DNA of 64,000 nucleotides from Chondrosia reniformis (taxonomy: Eukaryota; Porifera; Demospongiae; Chondrillida; Chondrillidae). Positions 1 to 16,794 of the stretch are shown here, in pieces. The notes beneath the pieces are model-generated. The model was not told where the DNA came from. It searched no databases and saw nothing but the letters and a program-made list of their open reading frames with translations. A program made the position numbers and the translations under genes. How positions within the stretch are numbered: the stretch's first letter is position 1; each line of letters starts with the position of its first letter. Location: assembly GCA_947172415.1 (NCBI GenBank), contig OX359200.1:4342501-4406500 (forward strand), in the 5' to 3' direction.

Positions 1-239
1 CATGCACCTTATTTACCTTCCAACGCTCAGTACGTTTAATCATGAAGCAAGAATGCACATAATTGACTAGTAACTATGAAACTGAATACTTAAAATCAGT
101 GATCTGTCACAGAACTATAGACACCTTACATATCATCCTTGCACTTCAATTTGTCTATATATATATATCCATACATTAAGGTGAAGTCTTTGTGGCCAGG
201 CTATGGATTTTAGTATTTCACCTCTGTGTATATACGTAT

Positions 240-350
240 ACACAGAAAGTGATTATAGCCTATCACATGATCACTGTTATGTTTTGTTGCTTTTTCCTGA
301 TAGGTAATCACTGTGGCAAGCAGTGCCATAATTCCTACTTTACCTTTTGT
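240..350. repeat. Half copy of a dispersed MITE family ending in AAGTAGGRATGGC
   Basis: The sequence from 'cacagaaagtgattatag' to 'gccataattcctacttt' resembles one arm of the foldback element at 15830-16262 and single-arm copies near 39160-39250 and 59925-60030. Shared features are the terminal AGTAGGGATGGC-like motif and an inner block similar to 'tgataggtactgttgcag'. It lies left of the last recognised exon of the helical-repeat gene; nothing else was seen in 1-493. Confidence 0.5.
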
Positions 351-493
351 GCTGTTTTTATTTAATATTTAAACATGGTTCTAGAGAGGGAGCTACGTAT
401 ACAGAGTGCTACATAATATCTCTAACTTTCATAAGTAATTTATAAAGCATATAATTAATACAATTAGAACAAACCAGATTTTTAAAAACTCAC

Positions 494-2061
494 GTTTTCA
501 CCTTCGGAAACTTGCAGAAGTATTCCTAGCAGCACATTAAATATGTCAAATAGTTGAGATTCAGGTAAACACAGGTTTAACCAAACCAGTTTGATGTACC
601 CTTTTGTACCATGGACTTCTCTGCAGCTAGGTAGGCCTGAAAAAGATAATTCAAATGTAAGTCAAGGTATACTGTTTATAGCCATTGCATATGCATGCAA
701 TATCTTACCAGGAACAAGTTGCCTCAAACTCTCATAAACCCCTTCTATTGAAGAGTCAGTGGCATTAACTGAAGAAGAGGCAGGTTGTGTGGACCTTTGG
801 TTACCATTTAAACTGTGCATAAAGTTGTCAGCCATAGGAAAACCAATTGTTTCTGTTACCATTGTTTGTGACATAGCATCAGGAAGTGATTTTTGTCGCA
901 CTACAACACGAAACCCTGCTTGAATAAATTGATGCAAAACTTGCTCTTTTTTCAAGTTATTAATTTGAACATGACCTACAGGGCAATCTGCATGAGGAAG
1001 TGGACAATCTGGACTAGCATCTTTATTAAGAAATATTTCAGCACATTGCTGAGAGAAGAGTGTTCGGCATAAAAAGATGCAATAATGTCTTCCTTGAGGA
1101 TATTTTGGAGAAGAGTAGCCCTTTCTGACACTGACCTTGAATCTTAAACCCATGCCTTCACCAGACATAACAACCACTTCTGTGTGTCCATCGGGAATTT
1201 TTGGTGTGTTAGAATGTGACCTATTTGTTGCAAGAGCTTTAACAGTTATTGGATTGTTATTTTCCATTAACAAATTTTGACAAGACTGCCCACAAAATTT
1301 CACTTGAATTCCATCAATTGTAATTGGTTTTGCCATTACTGATGCTCTTGACAAACAGTTTTCACATCTCTTAGAGCAATACCAGCAACGTTGAGAAGTT
1401 CTACACTTCATATCAAGTGGGGACCCAAAAGTACTAAGAATTGATAAATAAAGATTTTTTAAAATATTCATGTACAGTATAAGAACAGCATCTCAAATAA
1501 CCACTTAAACATTTTTATGTTTTACTCATATGAGTGTTTGCATACCCATGCATTATGGCCACAGCTATGGTAATTTATGCATTTTGTGAATGGTACATAT
1601 ACAAGACTTCAACTGGTTGTCAGCCAGTTAAGCATTTCTATACACTACTATTTAATAAGAAGAATGTGTGTTTAAACAAGGAACTATATATTCACCCATT
1701 ATGAAGCCTGCAAATAAACACTACTGGATATTATGCCAACCAACCAACCAGTGATGACCTCCCAGTCATCCAATGATGGCAAAAATCATCAATGAACCAC
1801 AAAGCCAAGCCAACTAGCCAAGTAGATGATTGTCACTTGGTTGGTCGGCGTAATATCTAGTGGTGTTTATTATTTTCAATGATAGCCCAGAACAGGCTTA
1901 CATGCAATAAACTCCCCTTTTCAATATGAATCCTATTTGAAATATCTTATACATACAATACAAAGCAGTAGGTAAAGTATATAATTTAATTCTATAAGCT
2001 AGATGTCCACAGAAGAGGGTAATTGTTTTCAGAAGAATTGTCTGATGTACATATTGACAGA

Positions 2062-2099
<38 letters not shown>

Positions 2100-5000
2100 C
2101 AAAAAGGTGTACACTATGCAGTAGTTAGGGTTTACCTGTGCTTATAATGATACATCAGTGATTGAAGATTGACAAACCCTCTAGACTGAAGTATTACAGG
2201 AAGATTACTTAAAATGGAGTCTTTCAAACGATTCACTAAAAGCAAAACAGTTGGATATCCCTCAAGTGTAGTATCACAAATTATGTCATCAACTTGGCCA
2301 GATGGTGTTAGAAAAAATCCAGCTGCAAAGACATTCCTTAAATTGGATTGATAATGAATAACAAATGGTCTTAAAGGAACCCTTTGCTTATCTAGCACAC
2401 CTATGAAGGCAACACTTGTATCATCACTATCTGGTGTGCTATAGTGAAGTAAAAGGTGATAATTAGGTGGCATAGATACAACTGCATCTTCCTCTATTAT
2501 GATAAACTGTTCAGGGAGCAAATTCAGAACTGCTTTTGATTCATTTTCACATTGGTCAGCAAATATAAGCTGATCTTTTTCTGTAGCTTCTACAATTTTA
2601 ACAGCTTCTAGTTTCTGCATTTTGGCTTCAGTTTCGGCTGTTGGCATAGCTTTTGGTTCTTTGTCCTTCTTGTGAAATAATGACTTAAGAGTTTCACGTC
2701 TAAAGTCTGAGGACTGCTGGCAGAACATCTGCCATAATCCTTTAGGAAGGATTCTATCTGATTCCTTAGGAATAATACATTTTCCCTTTATTGGAGAAAC
2801 CTTATGACAGTTTTGCTCCAAATCAATTGAAGGAAACTCAAATGGCACCAAAATATTAATGATACCTATATGTGCTACTAAAAATTGAGCCACTTGAGGT
2901 TGACTTTTCAGTCCATCATTGAGCTTAATATCATCACAAAAGAAGGAGGCAGGACAGATTAAGACCTGATTGAGTATCCTATCCTTATATTCATTAGGTA
3001 CACTTGTAGGATTGAACAGCAAATACAAATCAGGCAGTTCAGTTGAGTCTGCCTCGATCTCTCCTAAAAGGAATTTCCTACATTTAATAAAAAAGTTGAA
3101 AACTTTCTGGCTTTCCATATAGGAAGGTATTCCAGTGATAACACCAACTGCTCTGAATAGGGTACTTATACAAAAATTGTATAGCCACGATTCATACTCC
3201 AGAATATACTCTTTTTTAAGACAGTCAACATCTTTGTGATTATATATTTTCAGGAAAAAATTAGTCAGAAACTTTTTCTCTCCCCCTTCATTAAAGACAC
3301 CTTCACAACTCTTACAGAAGGTAAAAAAAGCAAATTCATTGGGGGAACGATATTTAAAGCGCCTTTTCATAGGTACATTTATACCCTTAAGACACCTTTT
3401 AGTAATGGTTTCACCCATTGAATCTGAGAAGAAGGTTAAAACAGATTTAGGTACAACATGGCTATGCTGAAGAGCTGCAGGACATTGTAAACACAATAGG
3501 CAACGCTGCATTTTAGCTAATTTTTCTGTGGCTTCTCGTGCAAGATCTGTCATAGCTATATTAAAAAACTGTGAAGCTTCTGAATCAAAACATCTATCCT
3601 TAGTGTAGGGCTCCATAGACTTAATAGAATCTCTTGCAATAGAGTAGCAGCTATCATGTAGCTTTACAAATTCTTCATCTTGATAAGGCCTCATGGAGAG
3701 CAAATTTTGCTGTCTCCTATAATCCTTGAATTGACATTTTCCAAGGATGACAGAAGAGGCTGCTAATATATGTTTCGGCAAGTCTTTTACGGAGACTAAA
3801 GACTTGCAGACAATAGTACATTCTTTGATCAGGCTCCAGGCATAGCATCCTACTGCATACTTAAGCCTTTCCTCAAAACCTGCATGTATATAAAATATAG
3901 GTTATCTATATGCACGGGGTTTTGCAGCATTTCATCTTTAATTAGGCCTCCATTTATCATATATATACATAAACTTCATAACTGGCAAATTGGCACCTCA
4001 ACATAAAAATTACGTTGCATGTTTGGGATGTCCTAATGAATTCAGTGGTGGTATATATAAAGATATATTTTCTATAATAAATTACACTATATAATTGAGT
4101 TATGACTAAAAATGATACTTTTTTCATGGCTGCCCACAATATTGAAGGGGCAAATGTGGCAGTGAATTCAAGTCCCAAGCGCAGTAATTAATGCTCCATT
4201 CATCTACGTATATATATAGGTTATGTACACAAACGTACATATCCTCACCTGTTTTTAAATAACCCTTCCAGCATATCAACACAAGTTTGAGAACATCTTT
4301 TGCTTCAATTCCAGCTTCACCAATAGAACTCTCTAAAATTCCTTTCAGCAGTGGAGCTTCCTTTATCACTCTGTCATGCAGCTCTTTCTCTTGAGAAAGC
4401 ATCCACAGAAGTCTAGCTGCCTCAATCTGGGTTTCTGAATTTTGCAATAAAATGGGAAAGCACTGTAAAAGTCCTTGATCTAACATAATACAACAGTTCT
4501 CCTGGAGTATTGTTGCTTCCAGTAGAAATTTCATTATTTCAGTTGCTTCCATTGGATATTCAAAAATTCTAGTAAATAAGACTGGATTATCCAGTGCTTC
4601 AAAGAGACCCTGAACACATTTCTGGAGTATATCTTTGTTAAGAGCTGCAACCTCTAGGACTCTATTATCCAGTAGATTAGCAATGTGCATTAAATTCATT
4701 TTAGTCAGAAAGTATATTGTAGGATAAGGAGTAGAAAGATAATCTAAAAGAATTGAAGCAACTTTGTGATAATTGTCAAATGCATACATTTCAACAGCAT
4801 CAGCCGAACAATAGTGAAGTAGAGTGAGGCAAAGCACAACCTTAGAAACTGTGTCCTACAGCAAAACCAAGAAGTAAATATTCAATGTGTATGTAGGTTT
4901 AATACGAATGTAAAAATTAAGTATGGCATGAGGTATAAATGACTTGGCTAGCTGATTTTATCTATAATGGTAAATTAGTGATGGCTATGAAATATCTAAC

Positions 5001-7243
5001 TTACATCAGTAGCAGCTTCATTCAAGTTGGTATTGTCAAGTGTAGTTAACAGAGTGCTTATTAAGCCAGAGCTAACAACAAAGCTTTGACTTGTGGTGTG
5101 CCTGCACATTCTAATGAGCAACTTTCCAATTAAATGGAGAACAGCCTCACATTTTGGATTTGTGCAAAATCCTGTATCTGCATAAGTATAGGTGAATGAA
5201 GAAAGACTAATTAAAAAGATTAGGATCTGTGATATATAAATTGGAGAAAAATATTTTTTTCATTTGTCGGTAAATAAACACTAGCTATTATAATTATTAT
5301 AATGACTCACCTAAGAGGTGTAAATGCAGAAATAATGAGAGTTCAGAAACCGTATTGTCAACTAAATGTTTAGGAATTTGTAATAACTTTTTCTTGGGAT
5401 GCCATTTGAGACTGGAAACACAGTTGTCTAGCACTTGGTAAATTTCCACTACAGCTTCTGCCTTTAAGCTGGACTCTCCAACTTGTACATTTTGGGCTTT
5501 CAAAAATGACTGCAAATGCTGTAGTTTTTCACTAAGAGAACTACATTCCTCTCTCAGGTTCACTATACTTGAATCAGAAGTTATCTTCTCTGTTTTCAAA
5601 TTTCTAGTGTCAGTTTCATATACTTCTTGAGTTGCAATGAGAATCATATCCAACAAGTCAACCAATTCTTCAGTTGAGTAGACAATATCAAGAGACCGAG
5701 TTATTGATGTCATAATGTTACTCTCCTTAAATAGTCCAGTATTTTCAGGAAGCAAAATAGTTTTCTTTAAAAAGCTGATTGCTAACTCACTTGGAATGCA
5801 TAATTTTAAGACATATACTTTTAAATGTGAAATTTCACATTTAGTTAGTTTTTTGATCTCATCTGGAAGTAAGGCTGAATCTAGATCTGATTTAGCAAAA
5901 AATATAATTGTTATTTTGCAAAGCAGCTGAATTTCAGGAATGTCAGACTTTAATAGAGGTCTCACAATATCACCAACAATATTTCCATCAACAAATTGCC
6001 TGAAGTTATCCTCATAGCAGAAGTTGAGTAACAGTTTCAGTAATACAGCAACAATTATGTGTACTTTAGGATTCTATAGAATAATGGAAGGACCCATTAT
6101 AAATAGATGAAGACAAATATGTCATGTCAGACATGTACTTCCATGGAAAACATGTACGTACGTAGTTCTATATGGTGTTAATATAATTATTACATAAATC
6201 AAAGCTACTGAACTGCAATAAATTGCCCATTGTACGTGGGTATCATTAACAGCTTGGTACTTAAATTGTGTTTATCTTTCAAAAGGTTCATCTTCCAAAC
6301 ATTTTAAGCATTTCTAAGTTTGATGCAGTTAGAAGAAATCAATTCTATTATAATTAAATAGTTAAATCTTCTTTTTGGATAAACATATTTACATGACATA
6401 GACCTCTACATTACCTGATTGGCTAAAAGTAAAGCTTCTTTGGCAATGTGGTCCAATAAATTATTAATGAGCTCCTTTGAGCGATTTTGATGTCTTTCTA
6501 AAGTATCAGTATGACGAATGACAGTACTAAAAGTGCTCCAAATTGTCAAAAGAAGTCTTTCCAATAACAGAAGATTGTCTGTGTCATCCAGACAGCAGTG
6601 AAAACCTGTATGAGATAGTGACAAAATATCTCAATGTATTGTTACAGGGTCATGTAAACAAGTTAATATTGCTGAAGTATACTATCCCATGCAACCCTCC
6701 TTTTCAATTTTAAATATAATCCATATTACTGGGACTACAACTTTACTGTCTTTAGCAAAATTTTCCTTTTTACAGTTGCACATATGTACGTACGTACATA
6801 TGTACATACATATTTACATACATACATGTACAGACATACATATATATATATACTGATGTACCATATGACTATTTATATATATCAAAGGAAACCAGATTCA
6901 CTTTGTGGTTCATTTCTGGTAATATTTGATAATATATACATTGAACCATCCCACTTATAATGACTCTCTAATAAAAACAGATACCTATATTATGCTTACC
7001 ATAAAGAATTTGCATTAAGAATTCAAAACAACTGTGTATGAATCTTTGCAACTCTTGGTTATCTGCTTCATAATCACATATGGAAGATCTTAGATTGACC
7101 ATCATTACTTTAATGATGGCAGACAATTCATTGTTAATTTTGTGATCATATAAAAGTTTCTCTTTAAATTCAACCATTTTTACTATTAAGTCAGCAATGT
7201 TGACTGTTGAAGAAGTAGAAAATGGTGATAACGGCCTTGAGAT
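494..7243 (-). CDS. Helical-repeat / HNH-like / Cys-cluster protein, module B (partial, runs off the left edge)
   Basis: Family not recognised by name. Exons on the minus strand with matching phases: 7243-7000, 6605-6415, 6073-5311, 5177-5005, 4855-4249, 3879-2136, 1433-709, 636-494, each bounded by AG/GT. The first five encode leucine-rich helical sequence of armadillo/HEAT character, arranged as a leading exon and two short-plus-long exon pairs. Exon 3879-2136 starts with a TPR-like helix pair, then has CLLC, SHVVPK and FCKSCE spaced like a zinc-bound HNH/treble-clef core, then a helix resembling WLYNFCISTLFR. Exon 1433-709 has a Cys cluster (CRTSQRCWYC, CENCL, FCGQSC). Exon 636-494 begins another phase-1 to phase-0 helical exon, so the coding region continues outside the window. 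Paralogous to 7419-14190. The leading exon has an acceptor but no clear start codon, and its phase 0 matches the preceding module's last donor, so both modules may be one gene. Function unknown; nuclease activity is inference. Confidence 0.72.
1713..1871. mobile_element. Small MITE with ~35-bp terminal inverted repeats
   Basis: The left end 'aataaacactactggatatt' followed by 'atgccaaccaacca' is mirrored at the right end by 'ttggttggtcggcgtaatat' followed by 'ctagtggtgtttatt'. About 90 bp of unrelated sequence separates the arms. No coding potential. It sits in the intron between exons 3879-2136 and 1433-709. Confidence 0.75.
2066..2098. repeat. (TA)n microsatellite
   Basis: Uninterrupted TA dinucleotide run just downstream, on the coding strand, of the donor of exon 3879-2136. 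Confidence 0.95.
3302..3502 (-). other. HNH/treble-clef-like core of module B
   Basis: Encodes CLLC (two zinc-ligand Cys), SHVVPK ten residues later (candidate catalytic His within an [SDE]H[IV]xP-type motif), and CKSCE 48 residues after the His. The same order and near-identical spacing occur in module A. Zinc binding and catalysis are inferred from the pattern only. Confidence 0.5.
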
Positions 7244-7418
7244 CTATTGTAAGCAAATTAACACAAAAATTACTAGCTAGTTATCTCATTCACCCATGTA
7301 TATTGCTACAACTAAATGCTTGTGCATACATCCTTATAATTTACTTTTTAATCTAACTACTTTAATTGTAAATTATATTTATCAGTAATATATAAAATGT
7401 CTGTTGTAGGTAACCTAC

Positions 7419-10400
7419 TATTAAGCATTTATTTTCATCCTGCCCCTGAAATAGTAGTTTCAGCTTAGCCATAATGACATCCAAATTGACATTGTTTAAG
7501 GAGGTATTAGTTTTCCTCTCTATTTCTACCTTGATTTGATTTAATGTAGGTACTAAAAAGAGTACTGGAGTCCCTGCTTCATTAAGATTCAAAATGTCTT
7601 CACGCCCTTTATGAAAATCTACATCAGGTAATGGATCTTGAAGTACTGATGCAGCAGAGTCAACAAAACATGCCACCATTCTCTGACTAAAGGCACTCCG
7701 ACAGACCAGGAAAACATAAAATTTGCCAGCAGGATCTTTGTCAGTCTTGAACCCATGATAGAATGAGCAATACATAACAACATCTTCAAATCTTCCTAAT
7801 TTAATTTTTGCAATAACATTGAACAGATGAAAACTGTCCTTCTCGAATGATGAAGAAGTATAAGGAGGTGGAATTTCAATTGAAATCACAGGCTCTCTTA
7901 CATTTAAACAGGAAGCACAGTTTTCACTGCAAAATCGCAGTGCTACCTCAGATTCATATGGAAAAGTCATGTCCGGACCCACTGTAGCTGGCTGAAGACA
8001 CACTTCACATCTATACTTACAGTACCAGCATCTTATCTCTGAGCGACACTTCATGTCAGTTGAAGGTAACAAGCTAAATGAAGGAAAAGAATATATTGGA
8101 TACATACATATGTATATTATGCAAGTTTACTTCAAACTGAATGACATTTATACGTAGATGTCATTTAGTTTGAAATAAATGTTCGTTTAGAATTGAGACT
8201 CAATAATGTTTGTTTTGGTTACATTCATAAAGGGGAACAATATTTAGTGGATACCCCAAAATAAAGCCATTGATTAAATAAATCCATCTTGACATAAGAA
8301 TGAATTATAGTCTTACATGTGATATACAAAAAGACAGATTAGACAATTGGGTCTTAGAATGGTAAATCTCATCATATAACAAAAGATATTATCCTTAAAA
8401 TGCGGAGATCTAACTAATATTATTATTTATAATTAAAAGTACATGGATGTATATAAGCAGGTATATCAATAGATATACGTATAGAACATTAATTTAGATG
8501 GCAGCTAACATACATGGTTTCAACGACTTGGGTATCAACAAAAGATTGAAAGCGGCTGTTGGAAATAAATCCAGGACAGCTGGTTTTAGCTACAGTATGT
8601 ATATACCAGTTCTGTACCATTCTCCACACCGCATCACATAACAGTGATGCTCTGTCTCTGTATATACTCTTGTAAAAAGCTCATGTATTTACGTAGCTAC
8701 TTTCCAAATACAAAACATGCATGTATGCAAGTAAATAACTAACTTGTGGTCTGCACATTTGATTAACAGCTGAAGATTAGCATAACCCTTCCTATGCAAA
8801 GAGCGAGCTAAATTTTGATGAATGAATGACTGGGCTGCCTTTTCAGCGAGTTGAATTAATTCATTTTGCTCCTTCATGTTAATTTTATTCATATTCTCAA
8901 GAAGTAATGCTGAAATTGATAATATGTTATATCCCACAATAAATGCGGAATTTGGACGGATTAATCTGAAAAATATTATAAAGGCCTGTGAGCCCAGCTT
9001 CTTGCTGGTCTTCTTGCCACTCTTCATGCCTATGAAGAGTGTAACTGGCAAATCTTCTGATTCACTGACTATAAATGTGTGATGTGTCAACAGTTTGAAA
9101 TTAGCAGGAAGCATCACAGTTGCACTCTTTAAATCAATTTTGATATCAGATGGAAGAAAATTTATTTGAACAGAAATGTCTAGATTTTCCATAACGTCTT
9201 TCGTGATCATACCTTCCTTGCCCATGGCCTTTAAAAGAGGGTGTTTTGGGTCCTGGTGTGGTGAAAAATCAGATGTTATCTCCTTGCTGGGACGGTCTTT
9301 CATAGAAAAAATAGATTCCATGCTAAATTGGAGCCAATACTTGGTAATCTCTTGGAATACAGACCAGACACCAGAGGGGATGTTCTTAGTCCTGTCTTCC
9401 TCAGCTGGAACTATGTAGATACCTCCTTCTGGGTTGATCTCCCACTCTGGTGGTAGTTCTGTATCTTCTTCTGGGGAAAATTTACAGAGTATGTTGAATA
9501 CCCCAAAATGCGCTAAGGCAAAGTGAACCCTGTTTGTGAGTAGGGATTCCATGCTTGGCTGGAAGTCATCTAGATCTGAGAGGTTGTGGGTCTGGATATC
9601 AAAGAAACCAGGACAATTTAGAATGGCATCTACACATGACGTCTTGTATTCTACAGGCACATTCACTGGGTTTAGAAACAAGTAAACCTTTGGGAGCGAT
9701 TTTAAGTTTTTACATTTGTTTAGCAAATATTGACGGCTTACTGTAAACAAATTGTATACTTCTTGGCTGTTTACAGCATATGCATCTGGTATACCAGATG
9801 TTGTTGCCATAAGTCTAAAGAGCAACCCTATGCAAAAATGGTAAAGCCATTCTCCATAATGCACAATCTTGCTCTCAAGAAGCTGATACCCTCTTGACTT
9901 TTCATATAGCTGCAAAAAGAAGGAGTTAAGAAATTCCAATTCTCCTCCTTTATTAAGCCGATCTTCACATTCAGCACAGAGCAAAAAAAATCGCAACTCT
10001 TTGGCTGAAAAATAATGATACTGGTCCTTTGGGTGGGTCCAGGCAGGACTTACTCTGATGTAGAATTTGTCACCATGTCTTGGTAAGAGGCTGTCAGAGA
10101 TCTCTTTCAGAACAGCCCTTGGGATTATGTGACTTTTTTGCAAAGTACTACCCAGTTTTAAACAAAGCATGCAAGGAGAGTCATTAACCTTATCAAGTTC
10201 ATTTAATTCAATAACAATGTCCATCAATACCATATCAAGAAATTTTATTCCTTCTTCATCAATGATTCCTTCTCTGAGGGCCTTAACAAACAATGATGCA
10301 GCATGCTTACTTTCCTTCATAATTGTAACATGTTTTTGGAACGATTTTTCTTCAGGATTTTCTTGCAGTTTGAATCTTAATAAATTCCTTCGATAAATCT

Positions 10401-13400
10401 TAAACTTACACTTTGCCAGCAAAAGCAATGCTGGACCGCCATCTTTAGAATCTGCTATATGTTTGCAGACTTTTTGGCATTCAGCGATATGTCCATGCTT
10501 GTAGCACCCTTTGGCATATTCCAATAGTGAATGGATATCTGTCAAGTAGCAAAATATGATATAATATACACCCTAAAACAAAAAGTTCCTACAACATCAG
10601 ATCATTTGGTTTATATTAATACTATATCCAAGTAAAACTCAAAACTGTCACAGTTATATAATACATGTGCCACCAAAGTGTAAACAGGACATAGACATGC
10701 ATACACACTGTTTATGTACTATATACCGTATTTGTCCAAATAGAAGTGCCCCGGTTTCTATTTCGTTCCAGTCATTTTTGACCCGGCTTTAATTCGAGCT
10801 GGGCTTCTATTCGAGCCCGGCTTCTATATAATATTAGTTAAAATTGATGTTGGTATAGATATTTACAGCGCACTCCACGGCCTTCAACTTGAAGGAGACA
10901 TCGTAGGACTTTCACTTTGACATCGCTACTGCAGCAGAAACTGGTCAGACAGTTCGCACCTTAACCAGTGTATCGATTAGCGAGATTCAGCCACTATTTT
11001 AGATCTGCTTCTATTCAGGGCCGGCTTCTATTCAAGACCCAGCTTCTATTTAAGAATAGCCCAGCTGACACCGGCCTCTATACAGACAAATATGGTATTT
11101 AAAGGGATTGTTTTTCTATTAAGTATAAAAATGAGAGTGAAATTAAAAATTAAAATCAGATTTTACTAAAATCTTACAACAAAGGAAATCAATTCATTTA
11201 ACTACATATAAAAATGAATTTTGTTGCTATAAGACTAGCTATATAGAGTGTATTAGATGTTTACGAAATTAAGGGGATGTAATATGTAGCCGATCTTAAA
11301 GCTACGATGTCTCATCATTTGACTCTGAAGACATGAGTGGGTGGGGTACATCCATAATGGAGTACATAAGCAATCAATTAATACTACAAATGGACATTTC
11401 TGAAAGAAATGTATACAATAACTATTAAATAATAAAAGATTTACACATTTATTATTATATAGGTTTACATATTTAGGTTTACCCCAACTAACTAGTCTAA
11501 GAAAATAGTGTTTTTAAGTCGATATCCTCTTTATGCTTCCTTAACCTCATCAGATTATATATTCATATAAATCTTACCTACCTTTTTCATTGTCAGTAGG
11601 AATTGACATCAAAATTAAACTAGCCAATTTGCCAGCAGCAGGTGATGCTGAATTTGAACATATTTCATTGAGCAAGGATTGGAGCAAATGACCCACTTCA
11701 GAATCACAAGCCATATTACTTATAAGATTACTTCTTATGTTGAAGTTCCACAACAGTGACAGCCCGCTCATAAGTGTATCCTCAACTTGGCAAAGCAGAA
11801 TTGAGGGTATTATATCAGTGAAGGATGATTCCTCCAGCAGTTTAGCATTCTTTTCAACTTCCATTCCCAAATCAAGTTCTTGCAATATTTCTTTTGCTGA
11901 GGTGATTACACTTCCAAATAAGGGAATAGTAGAAACACAGTTAGGGGTTTCTAAAGCTGTCTTCAATCCACTCAGTAATTCTTTAATTTCACTGGATGTG
12001 AATTCTAAGTTTGTAAGCTCAGTGGAGCTCAGTAGGGGCCCCAGGTGTAGGGCTACCACAAGGGTACTCATGCGAATTAAAGGTGTGGTAGATTTTATAA
12101 AGGGAATCAAAATATTCAGCACAAAAGTGGCATTATTGAAGGAATGATATTCCATTGCAACTTCTGAACAATTTCCAAGTAAAAGAAGAATCAGAAATAT
12201 TCTTTTCTCTAACTTCTAAATGAAAAATAATTTTATAATGAGATAAAATATTGCTTATCATAAATAGTAAAAAATGATTAAGGAGTGTATGGTCATGCAT
12301 GGGATGTATACTTGAATATCCAAATCATTAGGATCATGCATGCATTCTAAGGAAGAATTTTGGTATGAAACTGTATATGTGTATGGCCATTAACAAAAAC
12401 AATATATACATGCAAAGAAAATTTAAATTAGCCATAGAAAGTGAACATATATATATGTACCGGCAAAACATTAAAGTAGGTTGTAGCACTTTCATACGTA
12501 TATTGTAATTGTGAGGTGTAGAAATAAACTTTTAAACACTACCTATATTCACAGGTAATGTAATTAAATTGTTTACTGGAGTAATATTTGCAACTGTCAA
12601 GTATTAATTACTATTACTCAAGTTATCAGATAATTAGTGAAGAAACTTGACAAGTACCTGTATATTAAGACACAGGGACTGAGTTTAGTGGTCTTATTAA
12701 TAATTTCGTATATGTTTGTTTTATGTAGTGAAAACATGCAAATTTGCACATTTTTGTGGTTGTTAACAATAATCCTAGTGAGTGTAGGAGTACCTTAAAG
12801 GTGTTGTTCAGTACTGTAAGTACATGGGATTTTAATAAAAATACATCTTTGTAGACCTTTATGATTATTAAATTAGACCTTTGAACGCATCCATACTTGA
12901 ACATAGATTAAACTAATTAATGATCTTCATACAATTGAATTACCTTTTCATAGATTGCAAGTTTACTAAATTTTTGCAAGGCATCCAACAAGATTCGAAC
13001 TATTCCGATTGAAACAATTCTTTTTTGAATGATTCGGTTCACATCAGAGGCAGCAACCAGAAATTCATTTGTTAAGTACAAGAGCTCTTGACAAAACGGA
13101 TCTGTACAGGTTCCCATATCTACATAATAATACAATATAATAATAAAAAGGTTAATTTTGTGGCATTATCAATAGAGAAAAGTAAGAAAAATTTGATGTT
13201 TTAGAAATCAAAAACACTTAGTCTATATAGATTCCTACTTTAGTAGGGAGTGCCATCTTAACTAATGACTTGCTTGCCATAATTACATATCACTTTCATT
13301 ACAACCAACATGTACAGAAAAATCATATCCTCACCCAAAGCTCTCACTAAGTTTAGTTCCCTATAGACCTTTACACTAATTAATTTCTCTAGAAATACAT

Positions 13401-14190
13401 TAGACATAGCAAAAGCCCCAGTCCAATGCATGGTGTCCTTATTTCTCAGGTAATCAGGTATTCTCTAAAATCAGTAGTAAAATTCTCATCACTACAGCTA
13501 CAGTTACAGAATACAGTCACTTAGTCTACTAGGGCATACGTACTTTGACCTTATATATAGGAAAACTAACAATTCCTGTAATGTCACCTTCTAGTTTGAA
13601 TTAAGATTAAATGAGAGCTCATCAAGTGAACCAATAAGATAAAAAAGAATCACTGCTGAATTGTGGAATTCCCTAAATTACATCTCTAGCCCAGTGGATG
13701 AGAGAAATAAAAAGACTCTATCTTGGCAAATCTACGTATATTTAGTGTGCATATACCAATCATTGGCCAAGGATAAATGGTATTTCTGTTAAATTTGTAC
13801 ACCACGTATATAGTAGGATGGTGAATATGTCTGTAAACGTAGCTATGTACGTTATATACAGTTCTCAAGTAAAATCGCGCGCAATAGCTTACCTGATACA
13901 TGTGTACTGACATAAGAACAGAAAGCCTCAATTACAAGTTCTTTACATGCGATCCTTGCGATGAATGCAACTTTCTGTTGCCTGCCCATTTTATTCATAT
14001 AACTAAGTAATGAACGAAGGGCAACGAGTATCGTTTGTCCGCGTTCTTTGTCTATCCGTCCTTCGTAGCAATCTTCCGAATGTACGGCTAGGGTGATAGC
14101 CACCTTTTCAGTAACAGTCACCATGGTCTCGTCTGGTTCATTTTTTGACTCTTTGCCGTTATTTCGAAGAGGACTTTGTAAGTCTGTCAT
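7419..14190 (-). CDS. Helical-repeat / HNH-like / Cys-cluster protein, module A (N-terminal)
   Basis: Exons with matching phases: 14190-13893 (ATG, good AAAATGA context), 13119-12944, 12215-11582, 10538-8744, 8073-7419. The first three encode about 370 residues of helical, armadillo/HEAT-like sequence. Exon 10538-8744 carries a TPR-like start (YAKGCYKHGH, then AECQKVCKHI) and an HNH-like core: CMLC, SHIIPR, then FLLCAECE about 50 residues later, followed by WLYHFCIGLLFRL. Exon 8073-7419 carries MKCRSEIRCWYC, CEVCL and RFCSENCASCL, an MYM/FCS-like zinc cluster, then a domain shared with module B (YVFLVCRSAFSQ). The last exon can either end at an in-frame stop at 7362 or splice at GTAGGT after 7419 into the phase-0 exon ending at 7243, fusing modules A and B. 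Bacterial proteins with the CxxC...SHIIP...CxxCE pattern are known HNH-like proteins; this link is from motif memory. Domain calls are inference, the exon structure is well supported. Confidence 0.75.
8131..8174. repeat. Near-perfect short palindrome
   Basis: 'ttcaaactgaatgacat' is followed, after about 10 bp, by its near-exact reverse complement 'atgtcatttagtttgaa'. It lies in the intron just upstream of the Cys-cluster exon of module A and could be a tiny foldback element. Confidence 0.7.
9964..10173 (-). other. HNH/treble-clef-like core of module A
   Basis: CMLC, then SHIIPR ten residues later, then LLCAECE after 51 residues. The pattern matches module B and resembles zinc-bound HNH proteins, where the His activates water. 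Only the motif supports this; no structure or alignment was available. Confidence 0.5.
10723..11098. mobile_element. MITE with ATACCGTATTTGTC-type inverted termini
   Basis: The left terminus 'ataccgtatttgtccaaata' is mirrored by 'tacagacaaatatggtat' at the right. Inside are several repeats of 'ggcttctattcgagccc'-like segments near both ends and a central unrelated block. No open frame. Inserted in the intron between module A exons 12215-11582 and 10538-8744. Confidence 0.75.
13360..13720. repeat. Fragments of a dispersed repeat inside an intron
   Basis: Short blocks ('ccaaagctctcactaagttt', 'gttccctatagacctttac', and near 13665-13720 'ggaattccct...cccagtgga') recur at 23205-23435, 27735-27895 and 57985-58170. 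The remainder of the 13120-13892 intron shows nothing else. Confidence 0.4.
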
Positions 14191-15828: not shown

Positions 15829-16794
15829 CATTACAAAAAAGAAGGAATACAAGTAAATAAAAACATTTAAAAAATGAAATGAGAAGTAGGGATGGCAGTC
15901 CCTGCAACAGTACCTATCACATCTAGAAAAAGTAACGAAACAAGAAAGTGATCATATGATAAGGCTAACATTGCAGAAGTGGCATATTGAAACTTAACTA
16001 TATATACACATCACTTCTATGTTTGGGCGCATCATGGATATACTAGAAGTAGGGATCGATGCGCCCAAACATAGAAGTGATGTGTATAGTTAAGTTTCAG
16101 TATGCCACTTCTGCAATGTTAGCCTTACCATATGATCACTTTCTTGTTTCGTTACTTTTTCTAGATGTGATAGGTACTGTTGCAGGGACTGCCATCCCTA
16201 CTTCTCATTTCATTTTTTAAATGTTTTTATTTACTTGTATTCCTTCTTTTTTTGTAATGTTATATACTTATTAAAATTAGTTTTGTAATTTTTTTGGCGA
16301 AAACTCGAAATATAACGTCGTAGTCGAAGGCAATCAGGAGATGACCAAGAACTCCTAATTAGAAAATGGCGACAAAAAGGTTCCAATTTGCTTACGCGCC
16401 ACAGAAAACCGTCTTTGCACAAATCGTTTGAAGACAGAAAGGTGCCTATTCCCTAGTTGCTAAAACTTTTAGACGATATGCCCCTAAGATGTATTTATCT
16501 ACAAGCGCGTTTATGCACTAGCGTGAAATAAAAGGAAGAATAAGAAGAAGAAGAAGAAAATGAGGAAAACCGGAAGTAGGCCTGAAACCGTTTTACAATC
16601 TTGGAGCCTTTATGCGCTCTTGAAAACAGCTTCCCTCAATTGAAATCGTACAAAAAAGACACATTATGAGTTTAAAAGAGGTAAAAACTCATTCGCTGCC
16701 TACTTATAAGGTGTTAACCAGTAATACATTGAATACGGCATCCATTTTTTTTTCGGGCCATCCCTACTTAGAGAGTACTACCGTACTCTCTGAT
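15829..16794. mobile_element. Left-arm-specific insertion containing a foldback element
   Basis: The right arm runs uninterrupted across this site, so these ~966 bp were inserted after the duplication or lost from the copy. Positions 15830-16033 and 16058-16262 are near-perfect inverted copies of ~205 bp around a 24-bp spacer. Terminal-type motifs AGTAGGGATGGC occur at about 15883, inverted at about 16195, and again inverted near 16757-16770. The rest (16263-16794) is relatively CpG-rich with no convincing gene and ends in a small palindrome 'agagagtactaccgtactct'. Confidence 0.78.

Follow-up and report, generated by a model that had tools for sequence, protein, structure and literature searches.

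A multi-copy gene family of the sponge Chondrosia reniformis joining a prokaryote-type, HNH-like zinc core to large repeat-like scaffolds

Two paralogous modules and their relatives in the sponge genome

Chondrosia reniformis carries two paralogous modules on the minus strand of a 64,000-nucleotide stretch of DNA (C12:4342501-4406500, hereafter the window), module A (14190-7419) and module B (7243-494), in which a helical, repeat-like scaffold is joined to an HNH-like zinc core and a Cys cluster. The spliced frames of both modules stay open: module A comprises 5 exons and 1186 codons without a stop, while module B comprises 8 exons and 1530 codons, likewise without a stop and open at both ends, with an AG acceptor and a GT donor at each exon and phases that chain at 7/7 junctions. 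Four exon pairs of equal phase correspond between A and B (13119/5177, 12215/4855, 10538/3879 and 8073/1433), and the exons lying 5' of these pairs, one in A and three in B, are without a counterpart. The large exons share 30% identity (E 8e-66), far beyond chance, and the Cys-cluster exons match at E 1e-16. An earlier annotation made from the DNA letters alone, referred to below as the original prediction, had proposed two paralogous modules with matching exon order, phases and motifs; this is confirmed by the four exons that pair one to one in equal phase and by the match of the large exons, and the positions it gave for the zinc cores, 9964-10173 and 3302-3502, coincide exactly with the mapped ones.

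The modules are members of an undescribed multi-copy sponge family, composed of intron-bearing genes with a prokaryote-type domain, and no description of this SHxxP/CE family was found in open PubMed Central papers. A search of the genome (117.38 Mb in 15 contigs) identified six further scored copies on five other chromosomes (C7, C8, C13, C4 and two on C9), some of them near-identical, and a six-frame search with the prokaryote and phage family phrog_26326 reached five places in the genome, with a best E of 1.6e-14. The multi-copy family proposed originally is thus borne out, with eight scored copies including A and B; its description as sponge-expanded holds for these eight and for additional broken copies, all within the Chondrosia reniformis genome alone. 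Bacterial contamination was set aside in view of the introns and the chromosome-scale scaffolds, and isolated pseudogenes in view of the long open exons and of ratios of nonsynonymous to synonymous substitution (dN/dS) of 0.35-0.39 across the pairs measured.

The copies differ in their architecture. In C8 and C13, ARM-like exons are followed by the large exon and then by the Cys-cluster exon, and C8 holds two additional broken copies. The C7 copy (L014 1615-5344) is a segmental duplicate of window positions 1-3770, with 94.6% identity, and is cut within the large exon; its Cys-cluster frame is shorter. In C4 and C9, no Cys cluster was seen in the stretch read; its place is taken by successive beta-rich repeats, recognised by inspection, that carry a WLC motif. 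C9a and C9b are open single frames of 2867 and 2932 codons that are 92.7% identical, with a dN/dS of 0.39 over 2695 codons. C9a (C9:4965076-4973676) runs from a TPR-like start through the HNH-like core and the WLC beta-rich repeats to an RHS-tip-like domain, and C9b is near-identical to it. The end of C9a is similar to the terminal portion of an RHS protein from a Sphingomonas plasmid (33% identity, E 2e-3), and the similarity stops 18 codons before the end of the gene. Both C9 copies also contain a short SPADDREHPLDG tandem repeat. By inspection, two further frames follow the C4 frame (L013, C4:1110800-1120700) in the same orientation, one with beta-repeats (2245-3672) and one that is ankyrin-like (3-1223).

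The extent of the window genes and the labels given to their parts have to be read with some care. Joined, A and B form a single open frame of 2716 codons, so that the modules may represent one gene or two. Exon 8 of module B ends at a consensus donor, which implies that the transcript continues past the window, and further ARM-like frames lie outside the window, at -84 to -551 and at -2671 to -3129 in its numbering; the donor of the final exon of module A, at 7419, was chosen among several alternatives. The label Armadillo (ARM) denotes sub-threshold Pfam matches, as the ARM profiles gave no significant match on the module exons (ARM_PUB E 0.011 and EFR3_ARM E 0.085, both below cut-off), and the label TPR denotes inspection. 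The second Cys cluster retains seven Cys in 5/5 aligned rows and gave no significant match to MYND or FCS profiles (zf-FCS E 0.011, zf-MYND E 0.28, both sub-threshold). The features are collected in Table 1.

Table 1. Features of modules A and B, in window coordinates.
Feature	Position	Strand	Remarks
Module A exon 1	13893..14190	-	ATG start at 14190
Module A exon 2, ARM-like	12944..13119	-	matches B 5177-5005
Module A exon 3, helical, ARM-like	11582..12215	-	matches B 4855-4249
Module A exon 4	8744..10538	-	TPR-like helices (by inspection), HNH-like zinc core, helical region with W/F-R motif, C-terminal region
Module A zinc core, CMLC...SHIIP...CAECE	9964..10173	-	alignment
Module A exon 5, Cys cluster	7419..8073	-	3' end uncertain
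Module A Cys cluster, MKCRSEIRCWYC...FCSENC	7917..8054	-	sequence and alignment
Module B exon 1	7000..7243	-	no start codon identified
Module B exon 2	6415..6605	-	splice and phase analysis
Module B exon 3, helical	5311..6073	-	splice and phase analysis
Module B exon 4	5005..5177	-	splice and phase analysis
Module B exon 5, ARM-like	4249..4855	-	sub-threshold ARM_PUB, E 0.011
Module B exon 6	2136..3879	-	TPR-like helices (by inspection), HNH-like zinc core, helical region, C-terminal region
Module B zinc core, CLLC...SHVVP...CKSCE	3302..3502	-	alignment
Module B exon 7, Cys cluster	709..1433	-	splice and phase analysis
Module B Cys cluster, MKCRTSQRCWYC...FCGQSC	1280..1411	-	sequence and alignment
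Module B exon 8	494..636	-	ends at consensus donor

Two repeat structures were observed in the surroundings of the modules. Within the window, positions 15835-16002 and 16085-16252 form an inverted repeat with 168-nucleotide arms that are 99% complementary and separated by 82 nucleotides, which has the look of a foldback element. On C12 past the low edge of the window (L017 1-2259, L036), a long tandem repeat array in which several frames are readable (LGCFGILRHIRIPNSRLKVGGRPPLELQLWS) lies close to the gene cluster.

The zinc core and its prokaryotic and phage relatives

In the zinc core of the sponge alignment, C, C, S, H, P, C and C are invariant in 8/8 rows, although distant rows share only 20-22% identity with A. 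A lack of Cys and His conservation among family members, which the original prediction had named as refuting it, was therefore not what was found. Judged from the alignments, the C-C-H-C-C core of A and B is not a product of chance, because six further genomic copies exist and SHxxP is kept in all eight, none of which was chosen by pattern. The signature of the domain reads CxLC, L..SHxxP, LCxxCE, 6-8 residues, E and then W/F-R, and it has the following exceptions: C13 has Asp for Glu, L058 is without the Pro, L031 without one Cys and L034 without the second Glu, and L063 has Asp. Across 28 rows compared, SHxxP occurs in 28/28 and [LF]C..[CF][ED] followed by Glu in 27/28; the former count is partly circular, because the prokaryotic rows used for alignments, tree and hhalign were picked by a pattern requiring SHxxP, by which L058, L063, L064, L065 and L068 were excluded. 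In a recount of 21 distinct places matched by the phrog_26326 profile, the core was present in 20 (L064 matches outside it), with Ser-His in 20/20 and SHxxP in 19/20.

Outside the sponge, the searches made here found this type of domain only in bacteria, archaea and phages. The family phrog_26326, whose function is unknown, matches A (7.9e-8), B (7.6e-6), C9a (1e-11) and C4 (4e-15), as well as C7 and C9b through the genome search, while C8 matches phrog_19960 (E 3.4e-7) and not phrog_26326. The homology spans the core and about 100 residues; across the sponge, archaeal and bacterial rows, 13 columns are invariant in 9/9, including a Leu and an Arg that lie past the zinc core, and the sponge profile aligns to the prokaryotic profile with an hhalign probability of 98.5% (E 3e-15). 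With the core of A as query, tblastn gave a best E of only 0.2 in phages and 2e-2 in plasmids, whereas the core of C4 performed better (E 5e-3 and 1e-3, respectively). The relatives are located on bacterial and archaeal plasmids, phages, viral contigs and genomes, and their distribution is patchy, with 8/296 and 5/299 genomes in two phyla and 0/14 control genomes carrying them. When 25 rows were placed in a tree, the six from the sponge clustered together (91/93; 94% of 200 bootstrap trees), and their group splits into C4 and C9a versus A, B, C8 and C13. The sponge domain was possibly acquired once from prokaryotes; because the tree is unrooted, its direction of transfer is something we infer.

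The likeness of this domain to HNH nucleases was assessed by profile comparison. Against HNH, HNH_5 and HNH_2, hhalign gave the prokaryote and phage family probabilities of 55-83% over 17-21 columns, compared with 2-5% for a zinc-ribbon control. The HNH_2 rows had been cut from 27 to 21 by requiring H-x-x-P, 29/30 HNH rows were used, and the HNH and HNH_5 rows derive largely from the same genes. Among the best 5 of 20 column shuffles the highest score was 16.1, versus a real score of 26.0. Sub-threshold Pfam matches were obtained to HNH_2 in 4/12 members and to HNH_5 in 3/12, and the His lies in an H-x-x-P strand with a Cys pair on either side, as does the HNH general base. The zinc core is likely to be HNH-like, a term preferred here to HNH.

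The genomic neighbourhoods of the prokaryotic relatives were surveyed through 20 neighbouring proteins, chosen by eye, at 12 loci; six more bacterial or viral loci (L046, L047, L069, L199, L201 and L204) were seen as lists of open reading frames only. Defence genes lie within about 1.4 kb of the relative at 4/12 loci. These include a TIR/SpbK-like gene about 20 nucleotides downstream (L045, 4998-6334), a type III restriction enzyme upstream and a GIY-YIG protein downstream (L070, 91-5770), AbiEi with a piece of AbiEii and toxin-antitoxin pairs (L200), and an Mrr-type nuclease with a serine recombinase (L205). A guanylate-cyclase-like protein (E 1.4e-6) was also observed at L203 3811-4530, near a relative whose frame holds an in-frame stop.

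Effector, adaptor or housekeeping protein

The preferred reading, which we hold tentatively and at somewhat less than an even chance, is that a captured prokaryotic HNH-like domain, placed on an ARM/TPR-like scaffold with a Cys cluster, serves defence or cell death as an effector that cuts or binds nucleic acid under the control of the scaffold. The reference to defence or cell death draws on the defence genes near 4/12 prokaryotic loci and on the RHS-tip-like end of C9a. The prokaryotic-type domain would probably have entered the sponge lineage in one acquisition, followed by duplications. Its core would adopt a zinc-stabilised ββα structure in which the conserved His activates water and two conserved acidic residues assist metal binding, while the ARM/TPR-like helices may recognise a trigger or partner. 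The second Cys cluster, with its MYND/FCS-like look, may bind another protein. Following release or oligomerisation, the HNH-like domain would be able to cut or hold nucleic acid, in defence or programmed cell death. The sensor-effector layout suggested in the original prediction stands as far as a repeat-like scaffold joined to an HNH-like core is concerned, and homology to prokaryotes and phages is added to it; the HNH likeness has turned out to be remote and sub-threshold, and the nuclease and immune roles keep the conditional form given here. A bolder extension, which must be regarded as unlikely, would make the SH..P/CE clade a hitherto undescribed HNH-like nuclease that acts as an anti-phage effector in bacterial defence islands. 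Captured once by the sponge lineage, it would then have given rise to two types of immune or cell-death receptor, one ARM-scaffolded (A, B, C8, C13) and the other toxin-tipped with beta-repeats (C4/C9-type).

Several observations weigh against an effector of this kind. No defence genes were found at 8/12 loci among the scanned, hand-picked neighbours, and PADLOC models matched 0/4 of the SHIIP proteins tested. Pfam, NCBIfam and PADLOC returned zero families above cut-off on the module exons scanned, and NACHT, NB-ARC, TIR, Death and other signalling domains are absent from the families reported on the ten module exons. The Pfam HNH cut-off was reached by no window exon or member scanned, the best E being 0.027 (HNH_5, archaeal L032) and 0.078. 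The predicted folds, with a mean predicted local distance difference test score (pLDDT) of 56 and 66, gave no PDB match at E <= 0.001 and none to HNH entries. C13 matched no PHROG profile, and its zinc core is interrupted by about 140 inserted residues. Finally, the family has Ser preceding the His and Glu following the last CxxC, positions at which HNH and HNH_5 rows show Asp and Asn.

These substitutions and the long insertion in C13, together with a scaffold that makes up most of the protein, favour the main rival, in which the core derives from HNH but is catalytically dead, with a role in structure or in DNA/RNA binding, and the proteins are large adaptors working through their repeats and Cys clusters. 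This rival is nonetheless somewhat doubtful: Ser-His and the following Glu are usual in free-living prokaryotic relatives too, which marks them as the family's own signature rather than as sponge decay, and HNH_2 rows also show Ser or Ala before the His. The purifying selection seen among the measured pairs, a modest copy number and the sub-threshold zf-FCS likeness of the second Cys cluster would suit a sponge housekeeping or developmental family, acting as a nucleic-acid-processing or ubiquitin/chromatin adaptor with no immune link. Such a role is quite unlikely, as the patchy occurrence of the prokaryotic relatives on plasmids and phages, the very deep divergence of the paralogues with their broken copies and segmental duplication, and the toxin-tip-like domain on one paralogue are a better fit to conflict genes. 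The lack of a fold match to HNH entries and the sub-threshold standing of every Pfam HNH hit could also point to a generic zinc knuckle that converged on the pattern and is neither HNH nor prokaryotic by descent; this is highly improbable in view of a homology to the prokaryotic family that reaches past the zinc core with E down to 4e-15 and of the low probability of the zinc-ribbon control.

If the preferred effector reading is correct, a sponge case would be added to the few animal effectors of bacterial origin, an unnamed phage and plasmid family would be tied to defence, and the core His, Glu and Glu would provide a testable set of residues. Even with a dead domain, an undescribed animal gene family with a prokaryote-type domain is present.

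Comparison with known nuclease, toxin and immune systems

The sponge core shares with Pfam HNH (PF01844) and HNH_5 (PF14279) a Cys pair, a His-x-x-Pro strand and a second Cys pair, and with rows of HNH_2 (PF13391) the Ser/Ala-His; it differs from these Pfam families in having Glu for Asn/His after the last CxxC and in the greater length of the spacer that separates SHxxP from the second Cys pair. With phrog_26326, phrog_19960 and phrog_7075 it has in common CxLC, L..SHxxP, LCxxCE, the Glu 6-8 residues on and W/F-R. The prokaryotic relatives compared are mostly stand-alone proteins of about 180-410 residues, whereas the sponge domain sits in scaffolds of more than 1100 codons per module. NLR-type immune receptors are built on NACHT/NB-ARC or Death/TIR domains, none of which is among the families reported on the ten sponge module exons.

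Among bacterial polymorphic toxins, Tox-SHH and other HNH clades are HNH-fold nucleases named after motif variants, with transfers to animals reported (PMC3482391). As described there, Tox-SHH has [SG]HH and H motifs without Cys pairs, while the sponge core has Cys pairs; an identity with Tox-SHH was set aside on this motif difference. The Pfam scan of the module exons did not find Tox-SHH.

Lineage-specific expansions of TRADD-N in Amphimedon and other marine animals combine varied architectures with bacterial links (PMC8195603), and in this the sponge family resembles them. The module exons scanned yielded neither a TRADD-N nor a Death-type domain.

The CIDE nucleases have domains and motifs other than those of the sponge modules, on which no CIDE (CAD/DFF40) match was found. 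CIDE (CAD/DFF40) is described as an animal HNH nuclease of bacterial provenance with a role in cell death (PMC3482391, PMC8195603), and it thereby provides a precedent for a bacterial-derived HNH nuclease in animal cell death.

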